Shown here: positions 16,604-38,905 of the stretch, in pieces
How the letters are laid out: every line of letters starts with the position of its first letter
Numbering within the stretch: the stretch's first letter is position 1
Source of the DNA: a virus
Strand: one strand, 5' to 3'
IMG/VR virus record: IMGVR_UViG_3300022912_000005
Span: 1-64,000 of that record
Length of the DNA stretch: 64,000 bases
The notes under the pieces: model-generated
The model's database searches: none
The model's input: only the letters and a program-made list of their open reading frames with translations
Told to the model about the DNA's origin: nothing
Program-made: the position numbers and the translations under genes

Positions 16604-17815
16604 ATGAAATTACGTGAATTTAAAAGTGATTTAAAGAAACAATGCATTGTGTTAATGGGACTACCAGCCGCTGGTAAATCAACTTTTATTGAAACTGATA
16701 TAAAGAAATATTTCTCTGGATTTAGTGGTTATAAAACAGTAAATTCGGATGTTACTATTGGTAAATTTCAATATGAAGTTGCAACTAATCATTATAAATA
16801 TTTATTAGGTACTAGTAGTGATCATGAAGTATTAGAATTCAGTAAAAACGCAAATTATACAACAAATCAAGGTAAAGAAGTTGACCATCCAATAACTGCT
16901 AAATGGTGGAATGATAATAAGGATAAAGGAATTAAATTTTTTTATAAAACATTTAAACCACCATATTATACTAATTATTTTGATATACGATCATTTGCTA
17001 AAGCTGAATCTGCTATTACATTTGATACTAAAATAAAGAAAGCTGGAAACTTTCTAATTGTTGATACTACAGCGGCACACCCAGGACCATTATTGAAAAA
17101 AATAAAACAGATTAAAGCAGATGGGTTTAATGTAACAGTGATATATTTAAGAATAAATCCAAAATATTCAATTGCACGAGATGTATATAGAGGAAAGAAT
17201 CAAGGTAGAACTGTAGGTGCTGATGTTATACTTGGATATGTATTGAAGATGAAAAATGCGATATCATCATATGAGAGTGAAGGTAGTGCTAAAGATGGTG
17301 TTATTGATAGAATAATGATTTTTGATTGGTCTGGTAAAGCTGACCCAAGATATGGTAAATGGGTAAAAAAGAGTGATGTTAGATATTCATTGAAACGAGA
17401 TACTAGGAAAGAAAATAAGAATATGGATGAATCAAAATTAAGAAAAATTATAAGAGAAGAAATTCAAAAATTAAATGAGATTGTACCATATTCAACACCA
17501 GAGGCACAGCGATTATCAGCAAATAGGGTGACTGAATTTGCAACAATGTTAAATAAAACTGAACTTAAAATAAAGAGACTAATGGCGAGTGATATTGTAC
17601 AAGGAGCGTATGATTTTTTTGATGTTATTACGAGTTCATCTTCAGGTAAAGTAAAAGGTACTAGAGATGAGATGAAAATGATTCAAGATATTGCAAATTC
17701 AAAAGAAATTGAAACTATATCAAGAAAAAAACATGGTGGTAGAAAAGGAAATTTTGATCGAATAGGAGCACAAAAATCAAATGTTAAAGGTCAACGAGGG
17801 GGATCAATCAGATGA
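16604..17815 (+). CDS. Zeta-toxin-like P-loop kinase joined in frame to a leader-bearing protein (403 aa)
   Basis: Residues ~12-250 form a P-loop kinase: Walker A GLPAAGKST (19-27), VNSD after the first strand, a later strand FLIVDTTAAH and TVIYLRINPKYSIARDVYRG, as in zeta-toxin/polynucleotide-kinase-like enzymes that phosphorylate nucleotide-type substrates. From residue 274 the sequence becomes MDESKLRKIIREEI-QKLNE, the shared leader, followed by a ~110-residue basic C-terminal region ending GGRKGNFDRIGAQKSNVKGQRGGSIR. AGGAAAG lies before the internal ATG at 17423, so a second product from there is likely. The kinase substrate is unknown. Confidence 0.7.
   Translation: MKLREFKSDLKKQCIVLMGLPAAGKSTFIETDIKKYFSGFSGYKTVNSDVTIGKFQYEVATNHYKYLLGTSSDHEVLEFSKNANYTTNQGKEVDHPITAKWWNDNKDKGIKFFYKTFKPPYYTNYFDIRSFAKAESAITFDTKIKKAGNFLIVDTTAAHPGPLLKKIKQIKADGFNVTVIYLRINPKYSIARDVYRGKNQGRTVGADVILGYVLKMKNAISSYESEGSAKDGVIDRIMIFDWSGKADPRYGKWVKKSDVRYSLKRDTRKENKNMDESKLRKIIREEIQKLNEIVPYSTPEAQRLSANRVTEFATMLNKTELKIKRLMASDIVQGAYDFFDVITSSSSGKVKGTRDEMKMIQDIANSKEIETISRKKHGGRKGNFDRIGAQKSNVKGQRGGSIR
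17423..17815 (+). CDS. Internal in-frame start giving a leader-bearing protein (130 aa), inferred
   Basis: ATG at 17423 follows TAGGAAAGAAAATAAGA. The product would start MDESKLRKIIREEIQKL-NE and continue IVPYSTPEAQRLS. The residues just upstream (KENKN) correspond to the normal untranslated ribosome-binding leader of this gene family, read as protein because the stop of the upstream kinase gene is missing. Separate initiation here is inferred, not shown. Confidence 0.45.
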   Translation: MDESKLRKIIREEIQKLNEIVPYSTPEAQRLSANRVTEFATMLNKTELKIKRLMASDIVQGAYDFFDVITSSSSGKVKGTRDEMKMIQDIANSKEIETISRKKHGGRKGNFDRIGAQKSNVKGQRGGSIR

Positions 17816-18102
17816 ATAAAATAAGAATTAAAGAAGTTCATAAGTGGATGAAAACATTGGAAGAAAACAAATATAAAAAAATATATAATTCTGATGTAAG
17901 ACGTGTGACGTGGTTCGTAAATAATAATATGTCAGAAGATTATGAATCAATGCCAAAATCAGTGAAACGAAAACGAACTGAATCAAAATATGGTAGAGAA
18001 CGATATCTAGCCAAGAAGTTTCTGGAACACAAAACATCAGAAGAAAAATTAAGAAATACAATTAGAGAAGCAATTCGAAAATTGATCGGAGAAACAAAAT
18101 GA
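17812..18102 (+). CDS. Basic protein with a leader-like helix at its C-terminus (96 aa)
   Basis: Overlaps the previous stop (ATGA). Highly basic, beginning NKIRIKEVHKWMKTLEENKYKKIYNSDV. The C-terminal 21 residues, from TSEEKLRNTIREAIRK to LIGETK, follow the same pattern as the shared N-terminal leader (ESKLRKIIREEIQKLNE). T4-type core and portal-associated proteins can carry targeting helices at the C-terminus, so this may be a C-terminal version of the capsid-targeting signal. No other domain recognised. Confidence 0.55.
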   Translation: MNKIRIKEVHKWMKTLEENKYKKIYNSDVRRVTWFVNNNMSEDYESMPKSVKRKRTESKYGRERYLAKKFLEHKTSEEKLRNTIREAIRKLIGETK

Positions 18103-18650
18103 TTAAATTAAAGAAAATAATAAACGAATCCTTTTCACTGGATGACGATAAACCAAAAATTGATAAGAAAAAAGTCATGGAAAGTGTATCTATGTATTCT
18201 GAATTAGGTAAATCTATATATAGAGAACAGAGCATTATGGAAGTTGCATCTCAATTGGTAGAAGTTATGGATGGTGCAAAAGGTCATATATTGGCTGAAA
18301 CTGATGCAGATTGGTTTGACAAAGTATCAATAAATCGAAATATGAAAACGATGGATAAACATGTTACAGAGTTTAAAAAGACTGCCAAAGATGCACATTC
18401 ATTGCAAGAACGAATGGTTGATTTATATGAGAATATAGGATTCACTTTGGGAAAATATTATGATATCAAAGAATTAAAAAAAGATGATGAAGATGACGGC
18501 AAAATCAATGAGGATTATGCAGATGACTTCAAAGCATTAATGAAAAAGTATAATATCACATCACCAAATCAATTAAAAGGTGACAATAAAAAGAAATTCT
18601 TTGATGAAGCTGACGCAATCAAAGATGCTGGTGAAAACGAAACTGATTAA
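18099..18650 (+). CDS. Acidic helical protein with short targeting-type leader (183 aa)
   Basis: Overlaps the previous gene by four bases. N-terminus MIKLKKIINE/S is a short version of the family leader ending I-N-E. The remainder is helical and acidic (KKVMESVSMYSELGKSIYREQSIMEVASQLVEVMDGAKG, later KKDDEDDGKINEDYADDFKALMKKY). The C-terminal part contains ITSPNQLKGDNKKKFFDEAD, a SAP/Rho-N-like pattern found at the C-end of many phage prohead-core proteins ('SPxxLxGxxKKKFFD'). Likely internal head protein; function unknown. Confidence 0.55.
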   Translation: MIKLKKIINESFSLDDDKPKIDKKKVMESVSMYSELGKSIYREQSIMEVASQLVEVMDGAKGHILAETDADWFDKVSINRNMKTMDKHVTEFKKTAKDAHSLQERMVDLYENIGFTLGKYYDIKELKKDDEDDGKINEDYADDFKALMKKYNITSPNQLKGDNKKKFFDEADAIKDAGENETD

Positions 18651-18665
18651 CTGGAGATTAATAAG

Positions 18666-18965
18666 ATGAAATTAACAGAAACAAAATTAAGAAAGATCAT
18701 TAAAGAAGAAATAAAAAGTATTCTCATAGAAGGTAATAGACCATTACATCAAATTGCTCGTGAGATTTCACAAGATTGGAAAAAAGTAAATTATGCGGCA
18801 AAACCATATTTAGAAGCAATGTCTACATTGGATTCAATTAAGGATAACTATTACATGGATTCAGGATTATCGATTGTGGCATACTTTTTATCTAATGCAT
18901 CAACTTGGCGTGGTGAAAAAGCGAAGATGATTAAAAAAGAACTTAAAGGTATGATGAAAGGATGA
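18666..18965 (+). CDS. Leader-family protein, unknown cargo (99 aa)
   Basis: Starts MKLTETKLRKIIKEEI then KSILIE/GNRPLH, so the predicted cut is after L-I-E22. The cargo is a ~77-residue basic helical protein (IAREISQDWKKVNYAAKPYLEAMSTLDSIKDNYYMDSGLSIVAYFLSNASTWRG..., quoted in part: AREISQDWKKVN, YFLSNASTWRGEKAKMIKKEL). The second half resembles small phage helical proteins with the sense 'S-I-V-x-Y-F-L-x-N-x-x-x-W-R-G'. Shine-Dalgarno CTGGAGATTAATAAG precedes the ATG. Confidence 0.65.
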   Translation: MKLTETKLRKIIKEEIKSILIEGNRPLHQIAREISQDWKKVNYAAKPYLEAMSTLDSIKDNYYMDSGLSIVAYFLSNASTWRGEKAKMIKKELKGMMKG

Positions 18966-18977
18966 TAAAGAAATAAA

Positions 18978-19460
18978 ATGAAACTAACAGAATCAAAATT
19001 AAGAAAACTTATTCGAGAAGAGTTGTTAAAAGAAGTTGGCTATCCTCGTGCTAAAAAATATTCAGATGCTGATTTTTATGATCATAAATCTAAAAATCGA
19101 TCAGATTCAGATATACAACTGAAATTTCCAGATGTATATAAATTTACTGTAAAAATGGCATCTGGTATTTTTGACTATGATATGCGATTTAAAGTATATT
19201 CAACTAAACCGTGGAAAAAGGGTGATGCTATAAAATTTCAAAAATTCCTTATTGGACCTAAGGGTGGACCTAAAGACGTAGGATTTAAAGAATTTACTAG
19301 TTCAGCGTTAAAGGGTAAAGATATTGAGGGTTGGAAAATGTATTTTATCACGTGGATCATTGATTATGAAGCTCGGGACCGCTTTAAACCTAAAGATCAA
19401 CAATATGCTGGAAAGAATAAAGTTGGTAAATATAAAAGAAATAAAGGATACCTACATTAA
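18978..19460 (+). CDS. Leader-family protein, unknown cargo (160 aa)
   Basis: Leader MKLTESKLRKLIREELLKE/V; predicted cut after L-K-E19. Cargo of ~141 residues, strongly basic, mixed alpha/beta, with a short proline/glycine stretch (LIGPKGGPKDVGFKEF) and a Lys-rich tail (AGKNKVGKYKRNKGYLH). No recognised domain and no catalytic motif seen. A basic cargo would suit DNA association in the head. Confidence 0.65.
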   Translation: MKLTESKLRKLIREELLKEVGYPRAKKYSDADFYDHKSKNRSDSDIQLKFPDVYKFTVKMASGIFDYDMRFKVYSTKPWKKGDAIKFQKFLIGPKGGPKDVGFKEFTSSALKGKDIEGWKMYFITWIIDYEARDRFKPKDQQYAGKNKVGKYKRNKGYLH

Positions 19461-19486: not shown

Positions 19487-19777
19487 ATGAAATTAACAGA
19501 AACAAAACTAAGAAAACTTATTCGAGAATATCTTCATCAGTTGAATGAAACTGATTCAACTTTATCGTTTATAGGTAATATAGCAAAATCTAAATCATTG
19601 ATGAACATGGGTGATGATTTAAAATCAAAATTTGGTAAAAATAATGTTGATTTTTCATTACGACCAGAGGCACATTATACTATAAAATATAAAGGTAAGA
19701 AGATTGTAATTATAAATAAAAAATATGCAGATGGGGCTGATTTAGTGGTTGGTCAGATCGCAGTGGGGTATATGTAA
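19487..19777 (+). CDS. Leader-family protein, unknown cargo (96 aa)
   Basis: Leader MKLTETKLRKLIREYLHQ then LNE/TDSTLSF, cut after Glu21. Cargo of ~75 residues with a helical first half (FIGNIAKSKSLMNMGDDLKSKFG) and a beta-hairpin second half (HYTIKYKGKKIVIINKKYAD). No family recognised. GGAAATAAAAAT precedes the ATG. Confidence 0.62.
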   Translation: MKLTETKLRKLIREYLHQLNETDSTLSFIGNIAKSKSLMNMGDDLKSKFGKNNVDFSLRPEAHYTIKYKGKKIVIINKKYADGADLVVGQIAVGYM

Positions 19778-19778
19778 A

Positions 19779-20060
19779 ATGAAACTAACAGAATCAAAAT
19801 TAAGAAAACTCATTAAAGAAGAACTATTGAAAGAAGGTGGTGATATAGGCACTTTAGAAAATGCACGATATCATATAAATGAATTAATACGTGATACAAT
19901 TTCAGCAGTAAATTCAGAGAATTTTTCAGGTGATGATGAAGGACATTCACAAGCAAAAGAAATTACGAAGGATTTGAAAATGCTTCGAAAAAAAGTAGAT
20001 GGTATATTTAAGAAATATAATCAAAATGAAAAACTTTGGTTCAGGAGTGTGGAGACATAA
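19779..20060 (+). CDS. Leader-family protein, small helical cargo (93 aa)
   Basis: ATG at 19779, one base after the previous stop and behind GTGGGG; an upstream in-frame ATG at 19749 lies inside the previous gene. Leader MKLTESKLRKLIKEELLKE/GGDIGTLE. Cargo is a helical bundle-type segment (NARYHINELIRDTISAV, AKEITKDLKMLRKKVDGIFKKY). Function unknown. Confidence 0.62.
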   Translation: MKLTESKLRKLIKEELLKEGGDIGTLENARYHINELIRDTISAVNSENFSGDDEGHSQAKEITKDLKMLRKKVDGIFKKYNQNEKLWFRSVET

Positions 20061-20381: not shown

Positions 20382-20759
20382 ATGAAACTTACAGAATCAA
20401 AATTAAGACAAATCATTAAAGAAGAGATTCAAAATTTAAATGAAAGTTGGACTGAAAAATCATTAAAGAAAAAAATGGACCTTGCAAATAAATATATCAA
20501 AAAATCACAAAAAGACAATATATCAGCAATTGAAACAGATAGTACTTGGGAAGAAGTATATGATTTTGAATTGATTACACTGAAAGGTAATTTTATATTT
20601 TTTAGCTATAAAGAACCATATAATAGTAAAAAACTCAAAAAGGAACGATTTAGTTGGAAACGAGAAGATATGACAGAAGATATTAAGTATATGTTCCAAT
20701 GGGTAATTAAAACAATCAAAAAAGGTTATCGATCAGAAGGTCAAAAGATACAATTTTAA
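20382..20759 (+). CDS. Leader-family protein, unknown cargo (125 aa)
   Basis: ATG at 20382, behind GTGGGGAGCAATATAAAA. Leader MKLTESKLRQIIKEEIQ then NLNE/SWTEKS. Cargo ~104 residues, very lysine-rich, with a central strand region (YDFELITLKGNFIFFSYKEP) and a C-terminal helix (MTEDIKYMFQWVIKTIKKGY). Looks like a small alpha/beta protein; no family recognised. Confidence 0.62.
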   Translation: MKLTESKLRQIIKEEIQNLNESWTEKSLKKKMDLANKYIKKSQKDNISAIETDSTWEEVYDFELITLKGNFIFFSYKEPYNSKKLKKERFSWKREDMTEDIKYMFQWVIKTIKKGYRSEGQKIQF

Positions 20760-21072: not shown

Positions 21073-21810
21073 ATGAAATTAGTAGAATCGAAATTAAGAA
21101 AACTCATTCGAGAAGAAATTCAAAGACTGAATGAAAAAATTGAAGGTGGACAAAGTGCTGGGACATTGGAAATAGCTTCTACAAAACCTGATACTGCTCG
21201 TGCGTTTGCAAAGAAAAAGGGTTGGGATATTAGTGAAATTACCAACTTTGATAAGAATTTTAACTTTGCGGCAAAAAAAGCATCGTTGGGTAAAACAAAA
21301 CGTAAAGATATGCCCGTTATTAATGATAATGATGTAAAAGAATTTCAACGTAAATTGGAAAAGGGATATATTGATGTTGTTAAACCATTTTCTAAAACTT
21401 TTAGTGGAAAGAACCCATTTCCAAGTGGATTAAAAGGTGGAGAGGCTCGTGATTTTTTAGAGCGTGGATTAAAAGATGGTGAAAAAAGTGATGATGTGAT
21501 TAGTGTATCTATAAGACAGGTATCAGCAAAAAAATTAAAACCAATTCAAAAGCAAATATATTTTAGTAAAATAGTAGAACCAATGAAAAAATTTGGTGTT
21601 AAAGGATCAACAAAATTTTTAGTATCTCAGACATTTTTTATTGCAAGTGAGGATTTGTATATAATAGATGGACATCACAGATGGTTATCTGCTTTATTAA
21701 TGAACCCTGATATGAAAGTGAATGTATTGACAATTGATTTACCGATAAGAAAATTATTACCATTATCAATTGCATATGGAGATTCAATTGGAAATTCCAG
21801 AAATGGTTAG
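21073..21810 (+). CDS. Leader-family protein carrying a ParB/Srx-like domain (245 aa)
   Basis: Leader MKLVESKLRKLIREEIQ then RLNE/KIEGG, cut after Glu21. The cargo contains YIIDGHHRWLSALLMNP (DGHHR at 199-203), the nucleotide-handling core motif of the ParB/sulfiredoxin superfamily. Before it are VSIRQVSAKKLKPIQKQIYFSKI and KGSTKFLVSQTFFIASED. ParB-like domains of this type occur in phages as CTPases, nucleases or adenine-specific modification partners. A head-delivered ParB/Srx enzyme would be an attractive anti-defence factor, but activity is unknown. Its stop is followed immediately by the GTG of the next gene. Confidence 0.68.
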   Translation: MKLVESKLRKLIREEIQRLNEKIEGGQSAGTLEIASTKPDTARAFAKKKGWDISEITNFDKNFNFAAKKASLGKTKRKDMPVINDNDVKEFQRKLEKGYIDVVKPFSKTFSGKNPFPSGLKGGEARDFLERGLKDGEKSDDVISVSIRQVSAKKLKPIQKQIYFSKIVEPMKKFGVKGSTKFLVSQTFFIASEDLYIIDGHHRWLSALLMNPDMKVNVLTIDLPIRKLLPLSIAYGDSIGNSRNG

Positions 21811-22176
21811 GTGATAAAATTAAAGAATATATTATTAAATGAAGCATCAACAATAGCATGTGGTGAATGTGTATCTTATGCATTTAAAACTGCATATAAA
21901 AATCTTGGTAGTAAAAAGATCAAAATAGTATATGGTACAGTTCAAAATGAATGGATTAGTAAAGGTAAGCGATATAAACATGCATGGGTTGTTGATGGTA
22001 ATATAGTAAAAGATTGGCAAATGATGGTATTGGGTATGACAAAATGGGCGAAAAAAGGAATGCCAATTAAAGAATTTAATAAATTTTGGAATCCAAAAGA
22101 TATGAAAACATTTACACCAGATGAGGCTATGGAAAACTTCGCACGAACACAATCACAATTGGGTTGGGATTGGTAA
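21811..22176 (+). CDS. Short-leader protein with papain/transglutaminase-like fold (121 aa)
   Basis: GTG start directly after the TAG of the previous gene. N-terminus MIKLKNILLNE/ASTIA is a shortened leader ending L-N-E. The cargo has CGECVSYAFKTAYK (Cys17/Cys20 at a helix start), HAWVVDGN (His58) and KDW (Asp69), the spacing of a small Cys-His-Asp hydrolase or transglutaminase-like domain. It could be a cysteine protease, deamidase or an inactive fold. The gene at 23591 has a similar Cys/His/Asp layout without a leader. Confidence 0.6.
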   Translation: MIKLKNILLNEASTIACGECVSYAFKTAYKNLGSKKIKIVYGTVQNEWISKGKRYKHAWVVDGNIVKDWQMMVLGMTKWAKKGMPIKEFNKFWNPKDMKTFTPDEAMENFARTQSQLGWDW

Positions 22177-22182: not shown

Positions 22183-22653
22183 ATGATAAAGATTGATGTG
22201 AAAATTGGTGACACAATTCTTATGGGAAAGTGGAAAAATAAAAAAGTAGTAATAAAAACTATATCAGAAGATGAGCATGGAATGCCAACGATAAATGGTA
22301 AAAAAATAGTGACGTTTCGCATACCAAAAACAGAAGAAGTTAAGGAAAATAAAAATATGAAATTAACAGAATCAAGATTAAGAAAATTAATTAAAGAAGA
22401 AATTCAAAAGTTGAATGATTCTTATAATGGTGATATATTTTCACACAATCCCGATACTGTTGAAGATGCTAAATCAGAATTGAGATTATTATTAAAAAAG
22501 AAAATGACAGTTGATGATGCAATGAATAAATTACCATTTTCTGATGATGGATTATGGGATGAACTTGATGATGTCAAGTATGGCTCTAATCCAAATGTTG
22601 ATGTTAGATCAATAATAAAAAGAAGATTGGAAAAGTTAGGAATAAAATTATGA
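22183..22653 (+). CDS. Small conserved phage domain fused in frame to a leader-bearing protein (156 aa)
   Basis: Residues 1-58 (IKVGDTILMG-type: KIDVKIGDTILMGKWKNKKV, HGMPTINGKKIVTFRIPK) match a small beta-barrel protein I recognise from other T4-like phages, where it usually stands alone. From Met59 (base 22357) the leader MKLTESRLRKLIKEEIQ-KLND/S begins, with a helical ~75-residue cargo after it. The residues EVKENKN before Met59 correspond to a ribosome-binding leader. Here the final residue of the leader is Asp, not Glu, so cleavage may be lost or altered. Confidence 0.62.
   Translation: MIKIDVKIGDTILMGKWKNKKVVIKTISEDEHGMPTINGKKIVTFRIPKTEEVKENKNMKLTESRLRKLIKEEIQKLNDSYNGDIFSHNPDTVEDAKSELRLLLKKKMTVDDAMNKLPFSDDGLWDELDDVKYGSNPNVDVRSIIKRRLEKLGIKL
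22357..22653 (+). CDS. Internal in-frame start for the leader-bearing part (98 aa), inferred
   Basis: ATG at 22357 is preceded by TTAAGGAAAATAAAAAT, the same Shine-Dalgarno spacing used by stand-alone members. The cargo (SYNGDIFSHNPDTVEDAKS, LLLKKKMTVDDAMNKLPFSD) is helical and acidic. Separate initiation is inferred from the ribosome binding site. Confidence 0.45.
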   Translation: MKLTESRLRKLIKEEIQKLNDSYNGDIFSHNPDTVEDAKSELRLLLKKKMTVDDAMNKLPFSDDGLWDELDDVKYGSNPNVDVRSIIKRRLEKLGIKL

Positions 22654-22952
22654 AATTAACAGAATCAAGATTAAGAAAAATTATTAAAGAAGAAATTCAA
22701 AAATTGAATTTAGTAGAAAAATTGGATATGTCGGGGATTTCATTAGATCCGACATTTTTATATAAATTGTTGAGTAGACTGCAACAAGATTGTGAATATT
22801 ATTTAGGGTTTGGAGGTCGAAGTATCAGAAACCTTTGGGGTGGAAAAGACCATATAAAATATATGTATGCAATTCATGATAAATTGAAGAAAAAACCAGA
22901 GTGGTTGTCTCTTAATGATATTAAAAAATATGAAAAGGATATGAAACTGTAA
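22650..22952 (+). CDS. Leader-family protein, small helical cargo (100 aa)
   Basis: Overlaps the previous stop (ATGA). Leader MKLTESRLRKIIKEEIQ then KLNLVE/KLDMSG: the LNE is replaced by LN-LVE, giving an L-V-E site two residues later. Cargo has PTFLYKLLSRLQQDCEYYL and a Trp-Gly loop (IRNLWGGKDHIKYMYAIHD). Helical, unknown function; the C-terminus is lysine-rich. Confidence 0.62.
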   Translation: MKLTESRLRKIIKEEIQKLNLVEKLDMSGISLDPTFLYKLLSRLQQDCEYYLGFGGRSIRNLWGGKDHIKYMYAIHDKLKKKPEWLSLNDIKKYEKDMKL

Positions 22953-22966: not shown

Positions 22967-23305
22967 ATGAAATTAACAGAATCAAGATTAAGAAAAATTA
23001 TTAAAGAAGAAATTCAAAAGTTGAATGAAAAATATGATCTGGATTATAAACCACCAAAACCAAAAGCTGATATTCTCAAATCATTAAAGGTTAAGAATCC
23101 AGACACTGAAGTTTTTGATACCTTCATGGATGGTTGGAATAATAAGCGTCATGGGTATACAAATGTGGATAAAAATTGGGCATGGCAGTTAGGTTGGCAT
23201 TACAAAGGATTACAACGTACGGAGCATAGAGGTAATAAATTTGATATAGCTCAATCACGAAAAAATGTCAATAGTATTAAATTGAAATTGAATAAAACTA
23301 GATAA
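22967..23305 (+). CDS. Leader-family protein, unknown cargo (112 aa)
   Basis: Strong ribosome binding site TTGGAGGTAATAAT. Leader MKLTESRLRKIIKEEIQ-KLNE/KYDLD. Cargo ~91 residues, Trp- and Asn-rich (FMDGWNNKRHGYTNVDKNWAW, QLGWHYKGLQRTE), with a basic C-terminus (SRKNVNSIKLKLNKTR). The pattern suggests a small nucleic-acid-binding protein; no family recognised. Confidence 0.62.
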   Translation: MKLTESRLRKIIKEEIQKLNEKYDLDYKPPKPKADILKSLKVKNPDTEVFDTFMDGWNNKRHGYTNVDKNWAWQLGWHYKGLQRTEHRGNKFDIAQSRKNVNSIKLKLNKTR

Positions 23306-23316: not shown

Positions 23317-23589
23317 ATGAAATTAACAGAATCAAGATTAAGAAAACTTATCAAAGAAGAAATTCAAAAATTGAATGAAGAAGTGAAAATGTCAGATGTA
23401 TTGATGAAAGTGAAATCTATTGTGGATAATCATCAAGCACAAAAGATAAATGGAGTATTAGTAGATGCTCAAACAGCTAACGGAATTATGTTGGTGTGGA
23501 ATAAAGTCAAAGACCCAATGAAGGTAAAATTAAATAAATTAAAAATAAATCAACTTGCAAATTTATATTGGAGTATGGTAAAGAAATAA
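23317..23589 (+). CDS. Leader-family protein with a small domain seen in other phage virion proteins (90 aa)
   Basis: Leader MKLTESRLRKLIKEEIQ-KLNE/EVKMSD. The cargo (VKSIVDNHQAQKINGVLVD, AQTANGIMLVWNKVKDPM, KVKLNKLKINQLANLYW) follows a pattern I have seen in proteins of large myoviruses: KI-x-GV-L-V-D, T-A-N/S-A/G-I, and a final K-L-x-I-x-x-L-A. Its function is not known. SD is GAGGTATATAT. Confidence 0.62.
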   Translation: MKLTESRLRKLIKEEIQKLNEEVKMSDVLMKVKSIVDNHQAQKINGVLVDAQTANGIMLVWNKVKDPMKVKLNKLKINQLANLYWSMVKK

Positions 23590-23918: not shown

Positions 23919-24803
23919 ATGAAAAATATATTCAATATAACAAAACAAAGTCAAATAGGTAAAAAACGTCAAAAAGTGAGTAAGTCAGATAAGGATAAAT
24001 TATTTAGTTTGGATGAAAAAGCTAAACGTGATTATAAAGATGAATATAAGAAATTTCAATCATCTGATAAATCAAAGAAATATAGAGCTGAATTAAATAA
24101 ATATAACAGAGATAAAGGCACGTATGGAAATGGTGACTGTAAAGATGCATCACATAAAAAAGGAAAAATAACAGGATTTGAAGCAGAGTCTAAAAATCGT
24201 GGTAGACGAGAAAAAAGTAGACTAAAAAAAGAGTCAAAAATGAATTTTATAGAATCAGAATTAAAAGAATTTGTTAAATATATGAATGGTTTTTATGGGC
24301 CAAAAGGAGTTTATCCAGATAAAAAGAAAAGAATTCTAAAAGTGAACGATATAAAAGCGGCGTATTCAGTATTATTAAAAAAGAAACCAAATTTTGAAAT
24401 TGGATATGATTCAGTTGATAGAGAAATGTTAAGAGATATTTTAATTAGGATGGGAAAGCTTGACCCTGAGTATAATAAAGGTCGGTCAACCAAAGGTAGA
24501 AATGAATCAACAGTGAAAATTACAGAGTCAAAATTGAGAAAATTTATTAAAGAAGAAATTCAAAAATTGAACCAAACTGCTGACCCAAAAGCTGTACTAC
24601 GAGATATAAGAGCCGTTACAAAGAAATTAGACGCATCGTGGAAAAGGAGAGGACCCCATCAACTTTTTGGACAAAAAGAAATTAGAGCATTAACATCTAG
24701 ATATATTGATCCGTCTGATAATTCAAAAGGAATGAAGCAAATTCGAGCTATGATAAAGGACCTTGATCGTTGGGTATCGGAATATAAGTGGATGAACAGC
24801 TAA
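23919..24803 (+). CDS. Composite protein with an embedded leader (294 aa)
   Basis: Three modules in one frame. (1) Residues 1-107, very basic, with KKYRAELNKYNRDKGTYGNG and GDCKDASHKKGKITGFEAES, a pattern seen in phage proteins. (2) From Met108 (base 24240) MNFIESELKEFVKYMNGFYG, a divergent leader-like helix, then ~80 residues. (3) From Val199 (base 24513) VKITESKLRKFIKEEIQ-KLNQ, the shared leader with LNQ in place of LNE and no good Shine-Dalgarno, followed by a ~75-residue basic helical domain. It looks as if successive cassettes have been fused by loss of stop codons. The last leader may be a fossil, since the cleavage Glu is missing. Confidence 0.6.
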   Translation: MKNIFNITKQSQIGKKRQKVSKSDKDKLFSLDEKAKRDYKDEYKKFQSSDKSKKYRAELNKYNRDKGTYGNGDCKDASHKKGKITGFEAESKNRGRREKSRLKKESKMNFIESELKEFVKYMNGFYGPKGVYPDKKKRILKVNDIKAAYSVLLKKKPNFEIGYDSVDREMLRDILIRMGKLDPEYNKGRSTKGRNESTVKITESKLRKFIKEEIQKLNQTADPKAVLRDIRAVTKKLDASWKRRGPHQLFGQKEIRALTSRYIDPSDNSKGMKQIRAMIKDLDRWVSEYKWMNS

Positions 24804-24970: not shown

Positions 24971-25052
24971 CTAAAGACATAAAAACATACCATTACAATC
25001 CAACCGAATGATTGTACTTCCAAGATATATAAAGAATCAGGAGAACACGAAT

Positions 25053-26033
25053 ATGAGTGACATATTAAAGGAAGCAATCGCCGATGCAAAATCAATAAAA
25101 GCCGTTGCTTTAGAAAACGCAAAGATGCAATTACAAGAAGCATTTGAACCACACTTACGATCTATCTTATCAACTAAATTGAGAGAAGAAGATGACGATG
25201 AAGATTATGAAGATGAAATGGGTGATGAGGATGAAGATGAGGAATCATTCGACGAAGATGTTGACGAGGACGTTGATGAAGAAGTTGATGAAGAAGTTGA
25301 CGAAGAAGTTGATGAAGAAGTTGATGAAGACATTGATGAAGACATCGATGAAGATGCTGATGAAGACATTAATGAAGAAGATGACGAAGAATATTCCGAT
25401 GACGATGAATTAGATGCTGAAATCGATAATGTAAATGCAGACTTAGATGATGAAGAAGAAGTTGATGAGGACATTAATGAAGAAGAAGACGAAGATGAAT
25501 ATTCTGACGATGACGAAGATGAAGAAGAATATGATATTGACGAAAACTTATTCAAAGAAGAAGATGACGAAGATATGGATTATTCCGATGACGATGAAGA
25601 AGATGACGAAGAAGAACTTGAAGAGCTTAAAACTAAATACACTGAATTAGAATCTGAATTAGAAGAACATAAGGAAGCTGTTGTATTCTTAAAAGATAAA
25701 TTGCATGAGATTAACATGTTGAATGCAAAACTTTTATATACTAACAAAGTATTTCAAATGTTTAATTTGGATAAAGATTCAAAAATGCAAGTTGTTGAAA
25801 CGTTCGATAGAACAAATACAACTCGTGAGATTAAGTTAGCATATTCAGTATTGTTAGAATCGTATAAGAAAAATACATCTATCGATAGAAAGAAATCTTT
25901 GAAAGAACATGTACTTCCAGGTGGATCATCTAGAAAAACAAAATCTACAAAATCTAAAAAAAGTGAAGAAATAATTAACGAAACATCAGAGATAGCTAAA
26001 AGATTTAAAAAGCTAGCTGGTATTATTAGTTAA
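25053..26033 (+). CDS. Prohead scaffold (T4 gp22-like), highly acidic
   Basis: ATG at 25053 is chosen behind AGGAGAACACGA. 326 aa. An N-terminal helix (SDILKEAIADAKSIKAVALE) is followed by ~150 residues of Asp/Glu-rich low complexity (repeats of EEVDEEVDEE, EDIDEDIDED) with YSDDDE blocks, and then a C-terminal coiled coil (LKTKYTELESELEEHKEAVV...). Ends with RFKKLAGII. Core scaffolds of T4-like phages are acidic, coiled-coil, and cut to small peptides by the prohead protease; several L-x-E sites are present (ILKE/A, QLQE/A). Position directly before the capsid gene fits gp22. Confidence 0.85.
   Translation: MSDILKEAIADAKSIKAVALENAKMQLQEAFEPHLRSILSTKLREEDDDEDYEDEMGDEDEDEESFDEDVDEDVDEEVDEEVDEEVDEEVDEDIDEDIDEDADEDINEEDDEEYSDDDELDAEIDNVNADLDDEEEVDEDINEEEDEDEYSDDDEDEEEYDIDENLFKEEDDEDMDYSDDDEEDDEEELEELKTKYTELESELEEHKEAVVFLKDKLHEINMLNAKLLYTNKVFQMFNLDKDSKMQVVETFDRTNTTREIKLAYSVLLESYKKNTSIDRKKSLKEHVLPGGSSRKTKSTKSKKSEEIINETSEIAKRFKKLAGIIS
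25205..25610 (+). repeat. Low-complexity Asp/Glu codon repeat tract in the scaffold gene
   Basis: Tandem GAT/GAC/GAA/GTT-type codons encoding imperfect EEVDEE / EDIDED / YSDDDE units. The repeats are not exact at DNA level (synonymous GAT/GAC and GAA/GAG alternation), which lowers slippage. The tract probably varies in length between related phages. Confidence 0.7.
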
Positions 26034-26059: not shown

Positions 26060-27682
26060 ATGAGACAACAATTAAATGAAGCTTTAAAAGGCTTAACAGA
26101 AACACGAAAAATGGTTGATGTTGCACGAGAATTGGTTGACAAATGGGATGGTTATGGACTATTAGAGGGTCTAAAATCTGATTATGACAAATCAAGCATG
26201 GCTGTATTACTTGAAAATCAAGCGAAACAGTTAGTACAAGAAGCAACTTCAACAGGAACATCGGCTAATTCAGAAGAATGGTCAGGTGTAGCATTACCAT
26301 TGGTACGAAGAATCTTTAGTGACATTGCGGCACAGGATTTTGTATCAGTACAACCGATGAACTTACCATCTGGATTGGTATTCTACTTAGATTTCAAATA
26401 TGGAAATACTGTAGGTAACATCACAGCAGATCAATCTTTTTATGGTAAAACTGGACCTAATACTCCATCAGGATCAAGTGCCCCTTACGGTGTAAATGGT
26501 TTATATGGTGTTGGTAGATATGGATACACTGTATCTCAATCATCACTTACAATAACAACATTAACAACTGCATCTGCGGCTGATGGTGTTGATGATTGGA
26601 ATTATGATACTGAAGTATCTCAATCTAATGCGATTGCCGCTGGTGGAAACTGGTGGAAGGTTGCTATACCAAAATCATCATTTCCACGAGCTGATGAAAA
26701 AGCTATTAGAGCGTACAATGTACAAACAACTGGAAACATTAAAGGATCATTATCACAGTTCCATGCGATATCAGGAAACAACTTTGTATTCTTTGTATCT
26801 GGAGCATCTGGTGATGCAGTAACTGCTAGTTTAAGTATTGATTACTTGAAACAACCTACTGACATTACAAGAGGTGATTTTGAATCTACTGGTACAGCAA
26901 ACAATCCTGAAACGGATATTGCAATTCCAGAGATCAATCTTGAGTTAAAATCTCAAACGATCATTGCTAAAACTAGAAAGTTGAAAGCTGTATGGACACC
27001 AGAAATTGCACAAGATTTAACAGCATATCACGCTGTTGATGCTGAAGCTGAATTAACTTCTATCTTGAGTGAATACATCTCAATGGAAATTGATTTGGAA
27101 ATAATTGATATGTTATTGCTTGACGCTGTAACAGTTGATTATTGGTCAGCTAAAGTTGGTTACGATTGGGTATCTAGTTCAAGTACATTTGCTGGTGATT
27201 CAGTATCACAAGCGGCATATGCTTACACGAAAGCCGAATGGTATCAAACTCTTGGACAACGAATTCAAAGAGTGTCAAACAACATTCATAAATTAACATT
27301 ACGTGGTGGTGCAAACTTCTTAGTATGTTCTCCAACTGTTGCAACAGTTATCGAATCTATTCCAGGATTCCATGCTGATACAGATGGTACAAAAGAACAA
27401 TTCGCTATGGGTGTATCAGCAATTGGTGCATTGAAAAACAGATGGACTGTTTATAAGAATCCTTATATGACAGAGAATGCTATATTGGTTGGATTTAGAG
27501 GAAGTAATTTCTTTGAAACTGGAGCTGTATATGCACCATATGTGCCATTGTTAATGTCACCACTAGTTTATGATCCTAAGAACTTCACACCAAGAAAAGG
27601 TGTGATGACAAGATATGCTAAGAAAATGGTTCGACCAGAATTCTATGGTAAAATCTTCTGTCATGGACTAGAAACTGTATAA
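26060..27682 (+). CDS. Major capsid protein (T4 gp23-like)
   Basis: 540 aa, close to gp23 (521). Typical elements: VALPLVRRIFSDIAAQDFVSVQPMNLPSGLVFYLDFKYG near residue 75-115 (quoted across two blocks), LELKSQTIIAKTRKLKAVWTPE, AQDLTAYHAVDAEAELTSIL and LVCSPTVATVIESIPGF. The N-terminal region has predicted processing sites; the best candidate is after Glu61 (QLVQE/ATSTG), close to the T4 position (Glu65), although P3 is Val rather than Leu/Ile. It forms the hexameric lattice of the head. Very good Shine-Dalgarno (CGGAGAAAATTGTA). A strong terminator follows at 27725. Confidence 0.93.
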   Translation: MRQQLNEALKGLTETRKMVDVARELVDKWDGYGLLEGLKSDYDKSSMAVLLENQAKQLVQEATSTGTSANSEEWSGVALPLVRRIFSDIAAQDFVSVQPMNLPSGLVFYLDFKYGNTVGNITADQSFYGKTGPNTPSGSSAPYGVNGLYGVGRYGYTVSQSSLTITTLTTASAADGVDDWNYDTEVSQSNAIAAGGNWWKVAIPKSSFPRADEKAIRAYNVQTTGNIKGSLSQFHAISGNNFVFFVSGASGDAVTASLSIDYLKQPTDITRGDFESTGTANNPETDIAIPEINLELKSQTIIAKTRKLKAVWTPEIAQDLTAYHAVDAEAELTSILSEYISMEIDLEIIDMLLLDAVTVDYWSAKVGYDWVSSSSTFAGDSVSQAAYAYTKAEWYQTLGQRIQRVSNNIHKLTLRGGANFLVCSPTVATVIESIPGFHADTDGTKEQFAMGVSAIGALKNRWTVYKNPYMTENAILVGFRGSNFFETGAVYAPYVPLLMSPLVYDPKNFTPRKGVMTRYAKKMVRPEFYGKIFCHGLETV

Positions 27683-29902: not shown

Positions 29903-30154
29903 ATGAAACTAACAGAATCAAAATTAAAAGAGATAATCAAAGAAGAACTTGAAAAGTTGAATGAGATAATTCCAAAATTACGATTGAAATCTGGAATGAA
30001 AGAATTGGGTGAAATTTATGGAAAATTAGAGGACATAGTACCACCAACTAATATATCAGATGGGGAGCGTAAAAAATTCAATACTGCAATAAAAAACGCA
30101 CAAAAGTCTGTCAGTGAGGTATCACGTATAATTAGAGGTGTTAAATCGTATTAA
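29903..30154 (+). CDS. Leader-family protein, small helical cargo (83 aa)
   Basis: SD TTTAGGAGAACAAAAA. Leader MKLTESKLKEIIKEELE then KLNE/IIPKLR. The ~62-residue cargo is helical (GMKELGEIYGKLEDIVPPTN, GERKKFNTAIKNAQKSVSEV) and ends RIIRGVKSY. It sits between the two neck genes, a clear example of a cassette inserted into the structural cluster. Confidence 0.62.
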   Translation: MKLTESKLKEIIKEELEKLNEIIPKLRLKSGMKELGEIYGKLEDIVPPTNISDGERKKFNTAIKNAQKSVSEVSRIIRGVKSY

Positions 30155-30627: not shown

Positions 30628-31254
30628 ATGAAACTTACAGAAACAAAATTAAGAGAGATAATTAAAGAAGAAATTCAAAAGTTAAATGAAGGTGGAGGAC
30701 ATCATTTTAAATATGGGAAAAAGTGGTATGTTGATAGTAGCTTTGTAAATTTTTGTCAACGTATTTTACCAAATTCAGAATTAAAACATATGGGATTTGG
30801 TGAATTTGAATTAGAAACTCCAAATGGCACGGTACAATTCGATAGGACTAATGGTAAAAAATTTACTGGTCAGGTTGGTAGATCACATGAAATGTATGAT
30901 GATGTTAATGGTAAACTTGTTGCAAAGCTCATCAAAGGAATGGAACAGAAAAAGAAATCTGAATTGGTGACAGAAGGATTAGTAATAAAGAAAACCCGAA
31001 TTACAAAATTGAATGACTTAATAATAACAGAACAAGAAGATAATAATAATGCGGTTAATGAAATATTATATGATGAAGTGACAGTTGCATTACGAGTGGC
31101 AAATGAGATGAAAACAAAACTTGAAAAATCCATCAAAGATTTAAGTGGAAATAAAGGTGGTAAAACGAAAGAAATGTTAAAATTCAATAAAAAATACTTA
31201 CATGATATTGAAGTACAAATAAAACAGTTGGAAGCCGCTGATAAATTTAATTAA
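30628..31254 (+). CDS. Leader-family protein with long two-part cargo (208 aa)
   Basis: ATG at 30628, four bases after the previous stop. Leader MKLTETKLREIIKEEIQ-KLNE/GGGHHF. The cargo has an N-terminal alpha/beta part (HHFKYGKKWYVDSSFVNFCQ, FGEFELETPNGTVQFDRTNGK) and, from ~residue 115, a second helical part with an additional I/L-x-E pattern (SELVTE/GLVIKK, LIITE/QEDNN) that may be further protease sites. The C-terminus is coiled coil (NEMKTKLEKSIKDLSGNKGG). Function unknown. Confidence 0.6.
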   Translation: MKLTETKLREIIKEEIQKLNEGGGHHFKYGKKWYVDSSFVNFCQRILPNSELKHMGFGEFELETPNGTVQFDRTNGKKFTGQVGRSHEMYDDVNGKLVAKLIKGMEQKKKSELVTEGLVIKKTRITKLNDLIITEQEDNNNAVNEILYDEVTVALRVANEMKTKLEKSIKDLSGNKGGKTKEMLKFNKKYLHDIEVQIKQLEAADKFN

Positions 31255-34834: not shown

Positions 34835-35134
34835 ATGAAATTAACAGAATCAAAACTAAGAGAAATCATCAAAGAAGAAATTCAAAAGTTGAATGAAGGT
34901 GGTGGTAAACAATCTATTGTAGAACTTGAAACAATGAAAGGTAGTATTACTAATCATATATTGAATATGCGTAAAAAAGAGGCAAGTCAACTACAAGGGG
35001 TGATTAAATATTCTTTAAAGGCAATGAAACAATCAGATATAGAAAAATGGGAAAAAGTGGAATATCAAGGGGTGATAAAAGATGCTGAGTTTAGATTGGC
35101 TTGGATTAACAAGGATATTAAACGATTATCGTAA
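34835..35134 (+). CDS. Leader-family protein, small helical cargo (99 aa)
   Basis: SD TTAGGAGTTGAACA. Leader MKLTESKLREIIKEEIQ-KLNE/GGGKQS. The ~78-residue cargo is helical (VELETMKGSITNHILNMRKK, LQGVIKYSLKAMKQSDIEKW). First of three consecutive leader genes behind the tube gene. Function unknown. Confidence 0.62.
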   Translation: MKLTESKLREIIKEEIQKLNEGGGKQSIVELETMKGSITNHILNMRKKEASQLQGVIKYSLKAMKQSDIEKWEKVEYQGVIKDAEFRLAWINKDIKRLS

Positions 35135-35162: not shown

Positions 35163-35501
35163 ATGAAAATTACAAAAACAAAACTAAGAAATATCATCAA
35201 AGAAGAATTATTGAATGAAGCTAAACAAACTGATGCAGGAAAATATTTAGCAGATAGAGACATGGAAGATACTGTTGAAGAGGCGGCTGATGAGTTATTT
35301 GAATTGATTAATTCAGAAGTACTTAAATCTATACAGAAGGTTGTTAATACTGCCACTAAAAAGATACATTCAAAACATAAAATAAATAGATATGACGCTG
35401 TGCAGGTAAATAAGGCTTTTATAAGAAAATTTCATGATAATAAAAAGATTACAGATAAAACTGGTACTGATGTTATAACGAAAATATTTGATTATATTTA
35501 A
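35163..35501 (+). CDS. Leader-family protein, helical cargo (112 aa)
   Basis: SD CTAGGAGCAAACA. Leader MKITKTKLRNIIKEELLNE/AKQTD, a shorter 19-residue version with the L-N-E site. Cargo: KYLADRDMEDTVEEAADELF, SIQKVVNTATKKIHSKHKIN and FIRKFHDNKKITDKTG. Helical, mixed charge; no family recognised. Confidence 0.6.
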   Translation: MKITKTKLRNIIKEELLNEAKQTDAGKYLADRDMEDTVEEAADELFELINSEVLKSIQKVVNTATKKIHSKHKINRYDAVQVNKAFIRKFHDNKKITDKTGTDVITKIFDYI

Positions 35502-35514: not shown

Positions 35515-35787
35515 ATGAAACTTACAGAAACAAAACTAAGACAGATCATCAAAGAAGAATTATTGAATGAGGAATATTTCTATAATATTTCGTTTAATTG
35601 GAACAGTATTGTATCGGAATATATGAAATGGGAAAAGGCATCGTTTGATAATTATTCAGAAATGGAAAATGCAAAAAACACTGATGAAGGTTGGAATACA
35701 AAAGATGCAAAAGTTGAAATTCTAGAAGAACTATTATCTGAATTGCAGAAAAAATCAAAACGAAAAGATAAAATTAAAATAAGTTAA
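35515..35787 (+). CDS. Leader-family protein, small cargo (90 aa)
   Basis: SD ATAGGAGTTGAACA, identical to that of the gene at 34835. Leader MKLTETKLRQIIKEELLNE/EYFYN. Cargo ~71 residues, aromatic then acidic (NISFNWNSIVSEYMKWEKAS, DAKVEILEELLSELQKKSKR). Function unknown. Confidence 0.6.
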   Translation: MKLTETKLRQIIKEELLNEEYFYNISFNWNSIVSEYMKWEKASFDNYSEMENAKNTDEGWNTKDAKVEILEELLSELQKKSKRKDKIKIS

Positions 35788-37009: not shown

Positions 37010-37014
37010 ATAAT

Positions 37015-37362
37015 ATGAAATTAACAGAATCAAAATTAAGAAAGATCATCAAAGAAGAAATTCAAAAATTGAATGAAGCTAATTCATTTATTAAACTGAA
37101 TTTTAATTCACATAAAAAGCATAACCCTAGTGTTGATATACTTGAGGGTTATATAAACTCAGATGCAAAGATAACATATTATATTAATATAAAGGGTAAA
37201 GATATTGGCAATGAGGGTATGGAGTATTACACTGGACCAAATTATGTAAGTGGAGCATCAGGTAAAAGTTTTTCAAGGCATTTTACAGTAGATAAAATAC
37301 CAAGCAAATATAAAAACATGTGGCTTGAATTGAAAAAAATATATGAAAAGAAATATAAATAA
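37015..37362 (+). CDS. Leader-family protein, unknown cargo (115 aa)
   Basis: ATG at 37015 (an ATG six or nine bases earlier is possible). Leader MKLTESKLRKIIKEEIQ-KLNE/ANSFIK. Cargo of ~94 residues, beta-rich (SFIKLNFNSHKKHNPSVDIL, AKITYYINIKGKDIGNEGME) with a helical C-terminus (KNMWLELKKIYEKKYK). Flanked by the peptidase gene and its duplicated 3' fragment, so this cassette appears to have been inserted at a recombination point. Confidence 0.6.
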   Translation: MKLTESKLRKIIKEEIQKLNEANSFIKLNFNSHKKHNPSVDILEGYINSDAKITYYINIKGKDIGNEGMEYYTGPNYVSGASGKSFSRHFTVDKIPSKYKNMWLELKKIYEKKYK

Positions 37363-37367
37363 TATTA

Positions 37368-37547
37368 GAGTTTTATGATTCTACAACAAAGAGTGGATGG
37401 ATTCATATATCTTATAAACGAAATGGTATTAATCGAAATAAGGTGTCCGTAGCCAAAAAGATATTACCAATGGGTAGTAAGAAGTTAATAACAAAATATT
37501 ATCATTTTAAAAGAGGTGATATTTTGAAAGGAAATGTAATAATATGA
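37368..37547 (+). pseudogene. Broken 3' copy of an M15 peptidase gene
   Basis: From about 37391 the bases align with 36761-36917 (offset 630) at high identity, and in frame they encode SGWIHISYKRNGINRNKVS then VAKKILPMGSKKLITKYYHF and KRGDILKGNVII before TGA at 37545-37547. Upstream codons EFYDSTTK fit a different M15 sequence (original: EFVSEDGRE), so this is the tail of a diverged paralogue, not an exact copy. No start codon, and the zinc His87/Asp94 part is absent. Most base differences are synonymous, so the parent copy was recently functional. Confidence 0.8.
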
Positions 37548-37912
37548 AACTTACAGAATCAAAATTAAGAGAAATCATCAAAGAAGAAATTCAGAAGTTG
37601 AATGAAGGTGCAACACAATTAGGTCAGTTTGTAAATGCTAATAGTGAAGCAAAAATAGAAAAATGGTTTAAGACTATGCAAAAAAAAGATGCTAAACAAT
37701 ATGGTAAAAATCCATATGGTGCTAATTGGACTAGTTTTGATGGAATAGAAATTGTATATGGTAAAACATTTTCAGATTCAAAACAAGACAGAAAAAAAGC
37801 ATTCGATTATATAACGAATAATTCTGAAAAATATGGGCCTGCTTTGGCTGTACGTATAGTATCAAATGGTAAGCCGTTTGGATATGCTATTGGTGGTTGG
37901 GTAGCAGAGTAA
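37544..37912 (+). CDS. Leader-family protein, unknown cargo (122 aa)
   Basis: ATG overlaps the TGA of the broken peptidase copy. Leader MKLTESKLREIIKEEIQ-KLNE/GATQLG. Cargo ~101 residues, alpha/beta: FVNANSEAKIEKWFKTMQKK, NPYGANWTSFDGIEIVYGKT, AFDYITNNSEKYGPALAVRI then VSNGKPFGYAIGGWVAE. No family recognised. SD AAAGGAAATGTAA. Confidence 0.62.
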   Translation: MKLTESKLREIIKEEIQKLNEGATQLGQFVNANSEAKIEKWFKTMQKKDAKQYGKNPYGANWTSFDGIEIVYGKTFSDSKQDRKKAFDYITNNSEKYGPALAVRIVSNGKPFGYAIGGWVAE

Positions 37913-37918
37913 AATATT

Positions 37919-38308
37919 ATGAAACTCAAAACAATATTAGCAGAAAATGTTATCAATGAGACTCTTAATACTGATGGTGTTATAAAGAGAACATTAGTAA
38001 ATCAAATATATAAACAAATTGGCCCAATAACTAAAGGCTTTTTTAGAGACAATGCATGGCAAGGAATTCATAAAGTATTTGATAAATTCTCAACATTAGG
38101 ATTAGATTATAGTATAACAGATTCCTATTATGGTAATCATAAGCACGACAATACAATGCCAATGGAAAGAAAACGTTGGTTCTTTGAGATAGAGCTTACA
38201 AATAAACGAGGTAGACCTGATAAGATAAAAGGTGTAATGACAGCCGCTGGTGCAGGCACACTTGATGATCCATTAGATAAATATGATATAACAGTTGTTA
38301 TGTCGTAA
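37919..38308 (+). CDS. Protein with divergent targeting-type leader (129 aa)
   Basis: Starts six bases after the previous stop. N-terminus MKLKTILAENVINE/TLNTDG ends in I-N-E, a shorter leader version. Cargo: VKRTLVNQIYKQIGPITKG-type helix (IKRTLVNQIYKQIGPITKGF), DYSITDSYYGNHKHDNTMPM, KRWFFEIELTNKRGRPDKIK and a beta end YDITVVMS. Resembles an alpha/beta protein related in style to the cargo at 27879; function unknown. Confidence 0.57.
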   Translation: MKLKTILAENVINETLNTDGVIKRTLVNQIYKQIGPITKGFFRDNAWQGIHKVFDKFSTLGLDYSITDSYYGNHKHDNTMPMERKRWFFEIELTNKRGRPDKIKGVMTAAGAGTLDDPLDKYDITVVMS

Positions 38309-38322
38309 GGAGAAATTAGAAT

Positions 38323-38604
38323 ATGAAACTAACAGAATCAAAACTAAGAGAAATTATAAAAGAAGAAATTCAAAAGTTGAAAGAAAACTCAGCATATTTG
38401 CCATTAAAATCTAATCGTTATTTTTATAATAAACGAGATGATAAAACATTAAAAATAGTATCAGTTGATGGTGATGATATAGGTGTACAATATTATGATT
38501 ATAAGACAAAAAAGCCAACTGGAAAACAAGTACATTATAATAAATCTGAAGTAGATTATTGGATTAAAAAAGGTGCATGGTCAGTATACAAACAGAAATT
38601 TTAA
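38323..38604 (+). CDS. Leader-family protein, small beta cargo (93 aa)
   Basis: SD AAGGAGAAATTAGAAT. Leader MKLTESKLREIIKEEIQ-KLKE/NSAYLP (L-K-E). The ~72-residue cargo looks like an SH3-type barrel (YFYNKRDDKTLKIVSVDGDD, IGVQYYDYKTKKPTGKQVHY, VDYWIKKGAWSVYKQKF). Function unknown. Confidence 0.62.
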   Translation: MKLTESKLREIIKEEIQKLKENSAYLPLKSNRYFYNKRDDKTLKIVSVDGDDIGVQYYDYKTKKPTGKQVHYNKSEVDYWIKKGAWSVYKQKF

Positions 38605-38617
38605 TAGGGGGTATAGT

Positions 38618-38905
38618 ATGAAATTAACAGAATCAAAATTAAGAAAAATCATCAAAGAAGAAATTCAGAAGTTGAATGAAGCTAATAAATTTAGTGTATA
38701 TGTTCAGAAATATACATCATCTAACTATGATGAGTATGATCCTGATAGGGGTAAAACGTTTCCAAAACTTGATTACAAGGAGTTTGAAACTAAACCTGAA
38801 GCAAATAAATATAAACGTCAATTATTGAAAAAGTATAATATGAATAAACACTATAATAATGGAATTAATTTTAAAAAACAACTTGAATTATTCACTAATT
38901 ATTAA
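38618..38905 (+). CDS. Leader-family protein, small cargo (95 aa)
   Basis: ATG at 38618 behind AGGGGGTATAGT; upstream in-frame ATG at 38573 lies inside the previous gene. Leader MKLTESKLRKIIKEEIQ-KLNE/ANKFSV. Cargo ~74 residues: SVYVQKYTSSNYDEYDPDRG, KLDYKEFETKPEANKYKRQL; a small domain with a strand and a Lys/Tyr-rich helix. Last leader-family gene in the window with the full leader. Confidence 0.62.
   Translation: MKLTESKLRKIIKEEIQKLNEANKFSVYVQKYTSSNYDEYDPDRGKTFPKLDYKEFETKPEANKYKRQLLKKYNMNKHYNNGINFKKQLELFTNY

Follow-up and report, generated by a model that had tools for sequence, protein, structure and literature searches.

A probable expanded T4-type internal-protein system in an uncultured phage, with a distinct putative capsid-targeting leader and an interchangeable polyprotein format

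In phage T4, the prohead protease gp21 cuts after L/I-X-E, the propeptides of internal proteins (IPs) comprise 10-19 residues, and targeting needs no more than the first 10 residues of IPIII (PMC9026906). The three IPs of T4 have the leader alone in common and inhibit different type IV restriction enzymes (PMC12373910), and they are ejected (PMC12373910, PMC3012670). The principle of a shared leader, diverse internal proteins and gp21 is already known from T-even phages. In this study, we describe 22 copies of a leader on small proteins encoded in a 64,000-nucleotide stretch (the window; positions 1 to 64,000 of IMG/VR virus record IMGVR_UViG_3300022912_000005, an uncultured T4 relative of 113,597 bases). 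Like IPI-III and Alt of T4 and the T-even phages, these are small diverse late proteins with a common N-terminal propeptide ending in L/I-x-E, in company with a gp21 (S77) protease (PMC9026906, PMC3012670, PMC12373910). Unlike T4, whose IPI leader reads MKTFKEFTSTTTPVSTITE/A and ends in ITE/A (a slash marks a known or predicted cut), the window phage has a leader of another sequence class, about 21 residues long, in 22 copies, whereas T4 has three IPs and the reported total for T-even phages is at least 10; some leaders are internal, and relatives have an interchangeable polyprotein format. What is new is the leader class, how many copies of it occur and how widely it is found among uncultured phages, the internal leaders and, above all, the interchange of leader-tagged cargos with protease-punctuated polyproteins. 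A literature search for the leader and linker strings, or for polyproteins together with a prohead protease, found no description, but it covered few subscription papers and leaves absence unproven.

Two further systems bear comparison. In phiKZ and SPN3US, a diverged gp21-type protease likewise cuts after x-x-E and so strips many internal head proteins of their propeptides (PMC10052503, PMC7411985). The polyvalent proteins of phages and conjugative elements are many-domain polypeptides predicted to be packaged, injected and possibly proteolysed (PMC5512222); unlike these, the units described here are small, mostly unknown and parted by repeated L/I/V-x-E linkers, and instead of a built-in peptidase domain the protease is a separate adjoining prohead protease gene.

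A leader profile run over all six frames of the window matched exactly the 22 places listed in the original prediction (28.6-48.8 bits), and since the next best match scored just 8.2 bits, the family is cleanly set apart from background (Table 1). All 22 leaders lie on the + strand at 17423-38680; one leader protein used as a query against the whole record recovered 21 of the 22, all at 17.4-38.7 kb, and no copy outside that interval. Nineteen copies open a gene, and three are internal to longer open reading frames (ORFs; 17423, 22357 and 24513), a Shine-Dalgarno-like stretch preceding the internal ATG at 17423 and 22357. The window consensus is MKLTESKLRKIIKEEIQKLNE, and the class can be written as MK[LI]T[KE]SxL[KR]xIIKEE[IL]..LxE. 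L/I-x-E had been expected at the end of nearly all leaders and terminates 20 of 22, the exceptions being 22357 (LND) and 24513 (LNQ); 22650 reads LN-LVE, and the core of all 22 contains I-[KR]-E, which fits the L/I-x-E motif too. Beyond the leader the proteins are unrelated, as claimed, no pair of mature parts in the window being similar at E<1e-3. The first unit of ORF 22183 has leadered homologs in two other contigs (L133 and L176), and before this unit a further leader class (MKKLLTEWRKYLNE, MKLLLENWRKYMKE) was observed at L133 1391 and L176 7074. Weak leader-like C-terminal helices were also observed at 14352-14618 and 17812-18102 (VEKQLRKFIRNELNK, EEKLRNTIREAIRKLIGE; 8.2 and 7.3 bits), and in locus L100 a homolog of 17812 is joined to further cargo via such a helix ending in QKLNE.

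The gp21-like protease claimed at 14967 was borne out as a T4 gp21-type Peptidase_S77 (PF03420, E 6e-30; phrog_207, E 3e-53) whose ORF runs from 14952, with H83 (ELDHP) and S137 (SSRG) near-invariant among 62 homologs, and it is the predicted processing enzyme for the leaders. The T4-like order gp17, gp20, gp21, gp22, gp23, sheath (32492) and tube (34332) is kept, the terminase and portal having homologs in relatives, and in aligned N-termini of relatives the propeptide of the major capsid protein (MCP) ends in QL[IVL]xE/[AN], the same site type.

A degenerate DNA pattern for the leader detected at least 118 stretches in IMG/VR contigs, and the counts for other contigs are drawn from the matches listed, among which 165 leader matches of at least 14 bits fall in 79 loci, MKITKSQLKQIIKEEL being the commonest form. 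Large contigs have 4-26 copies each; because 26 occur on a contig of 242 kb and 25 on one of 273 kb, the window's 22 copies are high but no record, so that the claim of a number far above T4's stands, but not as something unique. Among leader contigs 30 kb or longer, 27 of 39 encode S77, versus 0 of 17 controls of that size (Fisher p 6e-7), the controls being contigs drawn by random 15-mer (S77 in 0/40, 17 of them at least 30 kb) and unmatched by habitat. The 30-81 kb class gave 14/26 versus 0/17 (p 1.5e-4), all 13 leader contigs of at least 81 kb have S77, and the HK97-type S78 protease was found in none of the 39. The 12 leader contigs without S77 are at most about 80 kb long and are probably fragments without a structural module, since they also yield no matches to the major-head-protein and sheath profiles, the head profile being matched in 12 of 16 S77-positive contigs; the expected pairing of leader and gp21-like protease is not contradicted by them. 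Among phage records, a tblastn search with the bare leader matched only LR756508 (484 kb), and a near-DNA search with 20 kb of the window matched nothing. That record, an uncultured huge-phage sequence with no annotation, was observed to have 15 leader matches and a T4-like capsid protein.

The predicted cut site is sharply placed. L/I-x-E with its E at residues 17-27 occurs in 76.5% of 102 leader proteins from other contigs, compared with 19.5% (sd 4) in shuffled sequences and 6-13% in stretches further along the proteins; at the leader end, E stands two residues after L/I in 36% versus 7% in the body. Residues A, G and S are common after the predicted cut.

Homologs of the leader cargos recur without a leader, often inside polyproteins of 600-840 amino acids (aa) in T4-like relatives, where units of 50-110 aa are parted by L/I/V-x-E sites, mostly ESVNE or EGKLTE. 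Boundaries coincide in the two formats, as in IQLLKE/ALTPKDKKV of 28253 and KKNMNE/ALKPADKKV of L052, TLQE/DGHEDVSS of L104 and SVNE/DGHTDVAS of L066, or LLNE/GPAADY of L160 and TINE/GPAYDY of L162; for the 19487 unit in the L037 polyprotein, the C-terminus also falls at the next linker. A site lies at most 4 residues from the predicted mature start in 35 of 65 leaderless-homolog pairs versus 12 expected, the pairs being not all independent because several targets are near-identical or overlapping contigs. The unit beginning RDYKDEYKKF (RDY unit), present in window ORF 23919, occurs in 61 distinct contexts, preceded by 41 different partners, and [LIVM]xE ends 0-4 residues before it in 45 of the 61 (expected 5.2; maximum 14 in 2000 simulations). 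Most of the 34 relatives of the 23317 cargo directly follow ESVNE-type sites in polyproteins, the first unit of 30628 recurs in polyproteins (L050, L321, L333), the 18666 protein has a homolog in L282 (62% identity) with a site just upstream, and the cargo of 17423 belongs to a family with 19 members elsewhere. Polyproteins were told apart from acidic scaffolds by exact repeated 4-mers, after loose-pattern linker counts failed, and this analysis revealed ORFs with 3-7 SVNE linkers or 3 KLTE linkers, most of which, on gp21-holding loci, start less than 2.5 kb from the protease gene. Polyproteins directly follow gp21 in L300, L301, L314/L324, L317 and L331; in L301, L331 and L317 they string together about 8-12 units and have units in common, in different order. 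The window array fills the same place, its 9.4 kb from protease to scaffold being exceeded by one of 46 loci compared, and both formats occur on one contig, L160, with eight leader proteins and a polyprotein. The L062 polyprotein, used as a query for related loci, returned its own contig alone. These alignments indicate that cargo units move between the leader-tagged and polyprotein formats; the cargo swapping that had been proposed is supported, at protein-unit boundaries and with the polyprotein format included.

Because leader and S77 co-occur, L/I-x-E is sharply placed, the MCP propeptide has the same site type and homologs start after sites, several independent lines indirectly support the proposal of a head-targeting leader removed by a gp21-like protease. 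The window very likely encodes an expanded T4-type internal-protein system in which a distinct capsid-targeting leader is removed by the gp21-type protease and for which a polyprotein format is interchangeable. We infer that the leader, or its polyprotein counterpart, would bind the prohead core and bring the late-expressed small protein in before DNA packaging; after shell closure, the S77 protease would cut after L/I/V-x-E, freeing folded cargos in the head and removing leaders and linkers, and some cargos would probably be ejected along with the DNA and may then act on the host. In the second format of relatives, the same units would enter as polyproteins encoded at or near gp21, with L/I/V-x-E linkers between them. 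More broadly, many uncultured aquatic T4-like phages probably load their heads with small effector-like proteins in two interchangeable formats, both matured inside the head by the prohead protease, which would amount to polyprotein processing in a tailed DNA phage. If so, tag and site rule together would read head-packed, probably injected proteins of uncultured phages from sequence alone, and a large number of hitherto hidden candidates for early effectors and counter-defence proteins would come to light; polyprotein processing would join the known uses of the prohead protease, and foreign proteins could be loaded into phage heads with the leaders as new packing tags.

Virion proteomes of cultured cyanophages bear on packaging. 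In CsCl-purified virions of the Synechococcus phage S-SCSM1, mass spectrometry identified 45 proteins (PMC9602691). The virion proteomes of S-SCSM1 (PMC9602691) and S-CREM2 (PMC10665884) include unknown proteins and NMNAT, and the accessible text of both papers describes no targeting leaders, linkers or polyproteins. The S-SCSM1 record labels gp279 a virion protein, and gp279 shares homology with the unit that opens the L160 and L062 polyproteins; window ORF 16165 has homologs in the opening units of the L062, L066 and L160 polyproteins and is related through them to gp279. The S-SCSM1 virion NMNAT (gp281, L347 1194-2423) starts with MKSFLQFLKE/AAES, a T4-like short leader, which suggests that it is packaged by targeting and not merely carried over; another virion protein, gp280, has many L/I-x-E motifs. 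A leader profile search found the long leader absent from S-SCSM1. These data support packaging of the cargo class, not of the window's own proteins.

Several points weigh against this interpretation. The leader profile matches no internal protein of T4, its sole match there (E 0.013) lying inside trna.3, and the leader is missing in 10 of 20 MCP-relative records matched at E<=0.01. Two of the 22 window leaders, and 24% of those elsewhere, have no terminal L/I-x-E. Because an I-x-E occupies residues 12-14 in every leader, the cut could be earlier, and the consensus leader showed no significant amphipathic moment (p 0.05 and 0.18). The virion assignment of gp279 is the record's 'virion protein' label, and the S-SCSM1 authors note that carry-over may account for some such proteins (PMC9602691). 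An RDY-like stand-alone protein occurs in the T7-like cyanophage P-SSP2 (L349 1889-2125), and the controls in the S77 comparison were unmatched by habitat.

The cargos may instead, though we regard this as rather improbable, be packaged and cleaved yet serve as core, scaffold-like or DNA-condensing head components and not as ejected host-directed effectors. T4 internal proteins do sit in the core, the cargos in the window are of small size and basic character (median charge per residue +0.065 vs +0.007, p 0.0005), and hardly any effector families are recognised: Pfam assigned just 7 families, one member each, to 137 leader proteins, comprising a Zeta-toxin-like kinase domain, LPD11 and a few unknown families, the one LPD11 and the one Zeta_toxin match being what these leader proteins offer for comparison with polyvalent proteins, and a PADLOC defence-family scan of the same 137 proteins gave weak single matches, none solid. 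Basic charge was rejected as a general cargo feature, being seen in the window and not in other contigs; in their extreme diversity and their turnover from phage to phage the cargos differ from structural proteins, the T4 counterparts of the cargos are ejected inhibitors (PMC12373910, PMC3012670), and the kinase domain lies upstream of one internal leader (ORF 16604). 

Under the main reading, a counter-defence role for part of the cargos is a reasonable guess by analogy with the three internal proteins of T4, each an inhibitor of a different type IV restriction enzyme. The 23317 cargo, when started at the predicted cut, was modelled by AlphaFold2 (AF2) as a compact domain (predicted local distance difference test score, pLDDT, 91.5), consistent with units being released as folded pieces. 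A fold search with this model gave E above 0.01 throughout, the best matches (TM 0.70-0.77) being domains within larger uncharacterised phage proteins, and that with the 17423 cargo gave no match.

Cleavage at the inner I-x-E instead of the terminal L-x-E is unlikely. Among 122 distinct leaders, M1, K2, T4, L8, I12 and E14 are nearly invariant, with I12 and E14 at 121/122 each, as the inner site would need, but the invariance arises partly by construction because the search pattern demanded a start codon and several such residues; homologous units of other phages start after the terminal site, as in the L104 and L066 pair and the L160 and L162 pair given above, and both sites may be cut. We give slightly less weight still to the leader being a docking or localisation tag for a non-head target (tail or baseplate, membrane, host machinery) with an incidental L/I-x-E, a reading that suits the interspersion of leader genes with tail as well as head genes and the distance of some leader clusters from S77 (e.g. 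G004), and that conflicts with the strong S77 co-occurrence, the E placed two residues after L/I, the homologous units beginning at the site and the polyproteins adjoining the protease gene.

The leader DNA, claimed to be nearly identical, is similar but averages 84% identity over the first 48 nt of the window copies (range 69-100%). Codons 2-15 gave 0.40 for synonymous (pS) and 0.10 for nonsynonymous (pN) differences (pN/pS 0.25), and the copies resemble one another from the ATG onward, the resemblance dying away where L-x-E is encoded, at the predicted cut. The codon comparison indicates that the leader is under purifying selection, and with these bounds it would be maintained as a peptide. 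Synonymous similarity falls with genomic distance, neighbours being closest (Mantel r 0.39, p 0.0002), which points to local duplication or conversion as the way in which the leader spreads. That the leader serves chiefly as a DNA-level cassette, as a repeat or a seed for recombination, with no protein role would fit the synonymous sites shared by neighbouring copies, but is hardly credible in view of the pN/pS, the ATG and L-x-E bounds and the same peptide being kept with other codons in other phages.

Table 1. Coordinates of the head-module genes, leader proteins and short-leader proteins in the window
Feature	Position	Strand	Basis or remark
gp21-type prohead protease, Peptidase_S77	14952..15578 (TTG start); in-frame ATG 14967	+	
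DUF3008-like unit, helix ending LLSE, second unit; no MKLT leader	16165..16599	+	
Zeta-toxin/PNK-like kinase domain, internal leader 17423-17479, 110-aa cargo	16604..17815	+	PF06414 E 3.5e-8; leader 37.4 bits
Conserved core protein, short leader MIKLKKIINE/S	18099..18650	+	first segment of L037 polyprotein
Leader protein, leader 18666-18731 (LIE)	18666..18965	+	leader profile
Leader protein (LKE)	18978..19460	+	leader profile
Leader protein (LNE)	19487..19777	+	leader profile; unit in L037 polyprotein, both boundaries at sites
Leader protein (LKE)	19779..20060	+	leader profile
Leader protein (LNE)	20382..20759	+	leader profile
Leader protein (LNE)	21073..21810	+	leader profile; ParB-like match PF08857 E 0.09, sub-threshold
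Probable short-leader protein VIKLKNILLNE/A	21811..22176	+	sequence
Unit, internal leader 22357-22419 (LND), unit	22183..22653	+	leader profile
Leader protein (LNLVE)	22650..22952	+	leader profile
Leader protein (LNE)	22967..23305	+	leader profile
Leader protein (LNE), 69-aa cargo	23317..23589	+	leader profile; AF2 model
Polyprotein-like ORF: RDY unit, further unit, internal leader 24513-24575 (LNQ), unit	23919..24803	+	
Acidic prohead scaffold (gp22 position)	25008..26033, start probably 25053	+	before gp23; homologs in relatives
Major capsid protein gp23	26060..27682	+	phrog_138 E 3e-73; N-terminal alignment
Probable short-leader protein MKLKDIVIGE/F	27879..28238	+	sequence
Leader protein (LKE)	28253..28576	+	leader profile; unit in L052 723-aa ORF right after MNE/
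Leader protein (LNE)	29903..30154	+	leader profile
Leader protein (LNE), extra internal L-x-E sites	30628..31254	+	leader profile
Leader protein (LNE)	34835..35134	+	leader profile
Leader protein (LNE)	35163..35501	+	leader profile
Leader protein (LNE)	35515..35787	+	leader profile
Leader protein (LNE)	37015..37362	+	leader profile
Leader protein (LNE)	37544..37912	+	leader profile
Probable short-leader protein MKLKTILAE/N	37919..38308	+	sequence
Leader protein (LKE)	38323..38604	+	leader profile
Leader protein (LNE)	38618..38905	+	leader profile

Besides the long leader, the window has short leaders, most of them probable, on further proteins (Table 1); their enrichment among its late genes is not significant (14/34 vs 3/19, p 0.07). 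Upstream of the protease, the terminase large subunit is found in two halves (7600-8436 and 9261-10520) with intein-like ends, and an endonuclease-like ORF standing on its own (8426-9313) lies between them, an arrangement that looks like a split intein; the portal protein (10541-13387) has an intein-like insertion (CISGDTIIPLPDG ... FATTMCFVHN). Consecutive QueD-, QueE-, FolE- and QueC-like genes, so judged from their sequences, occupy 59493-62672 and suggest 7-deazaguanine modification of the phage DNA.

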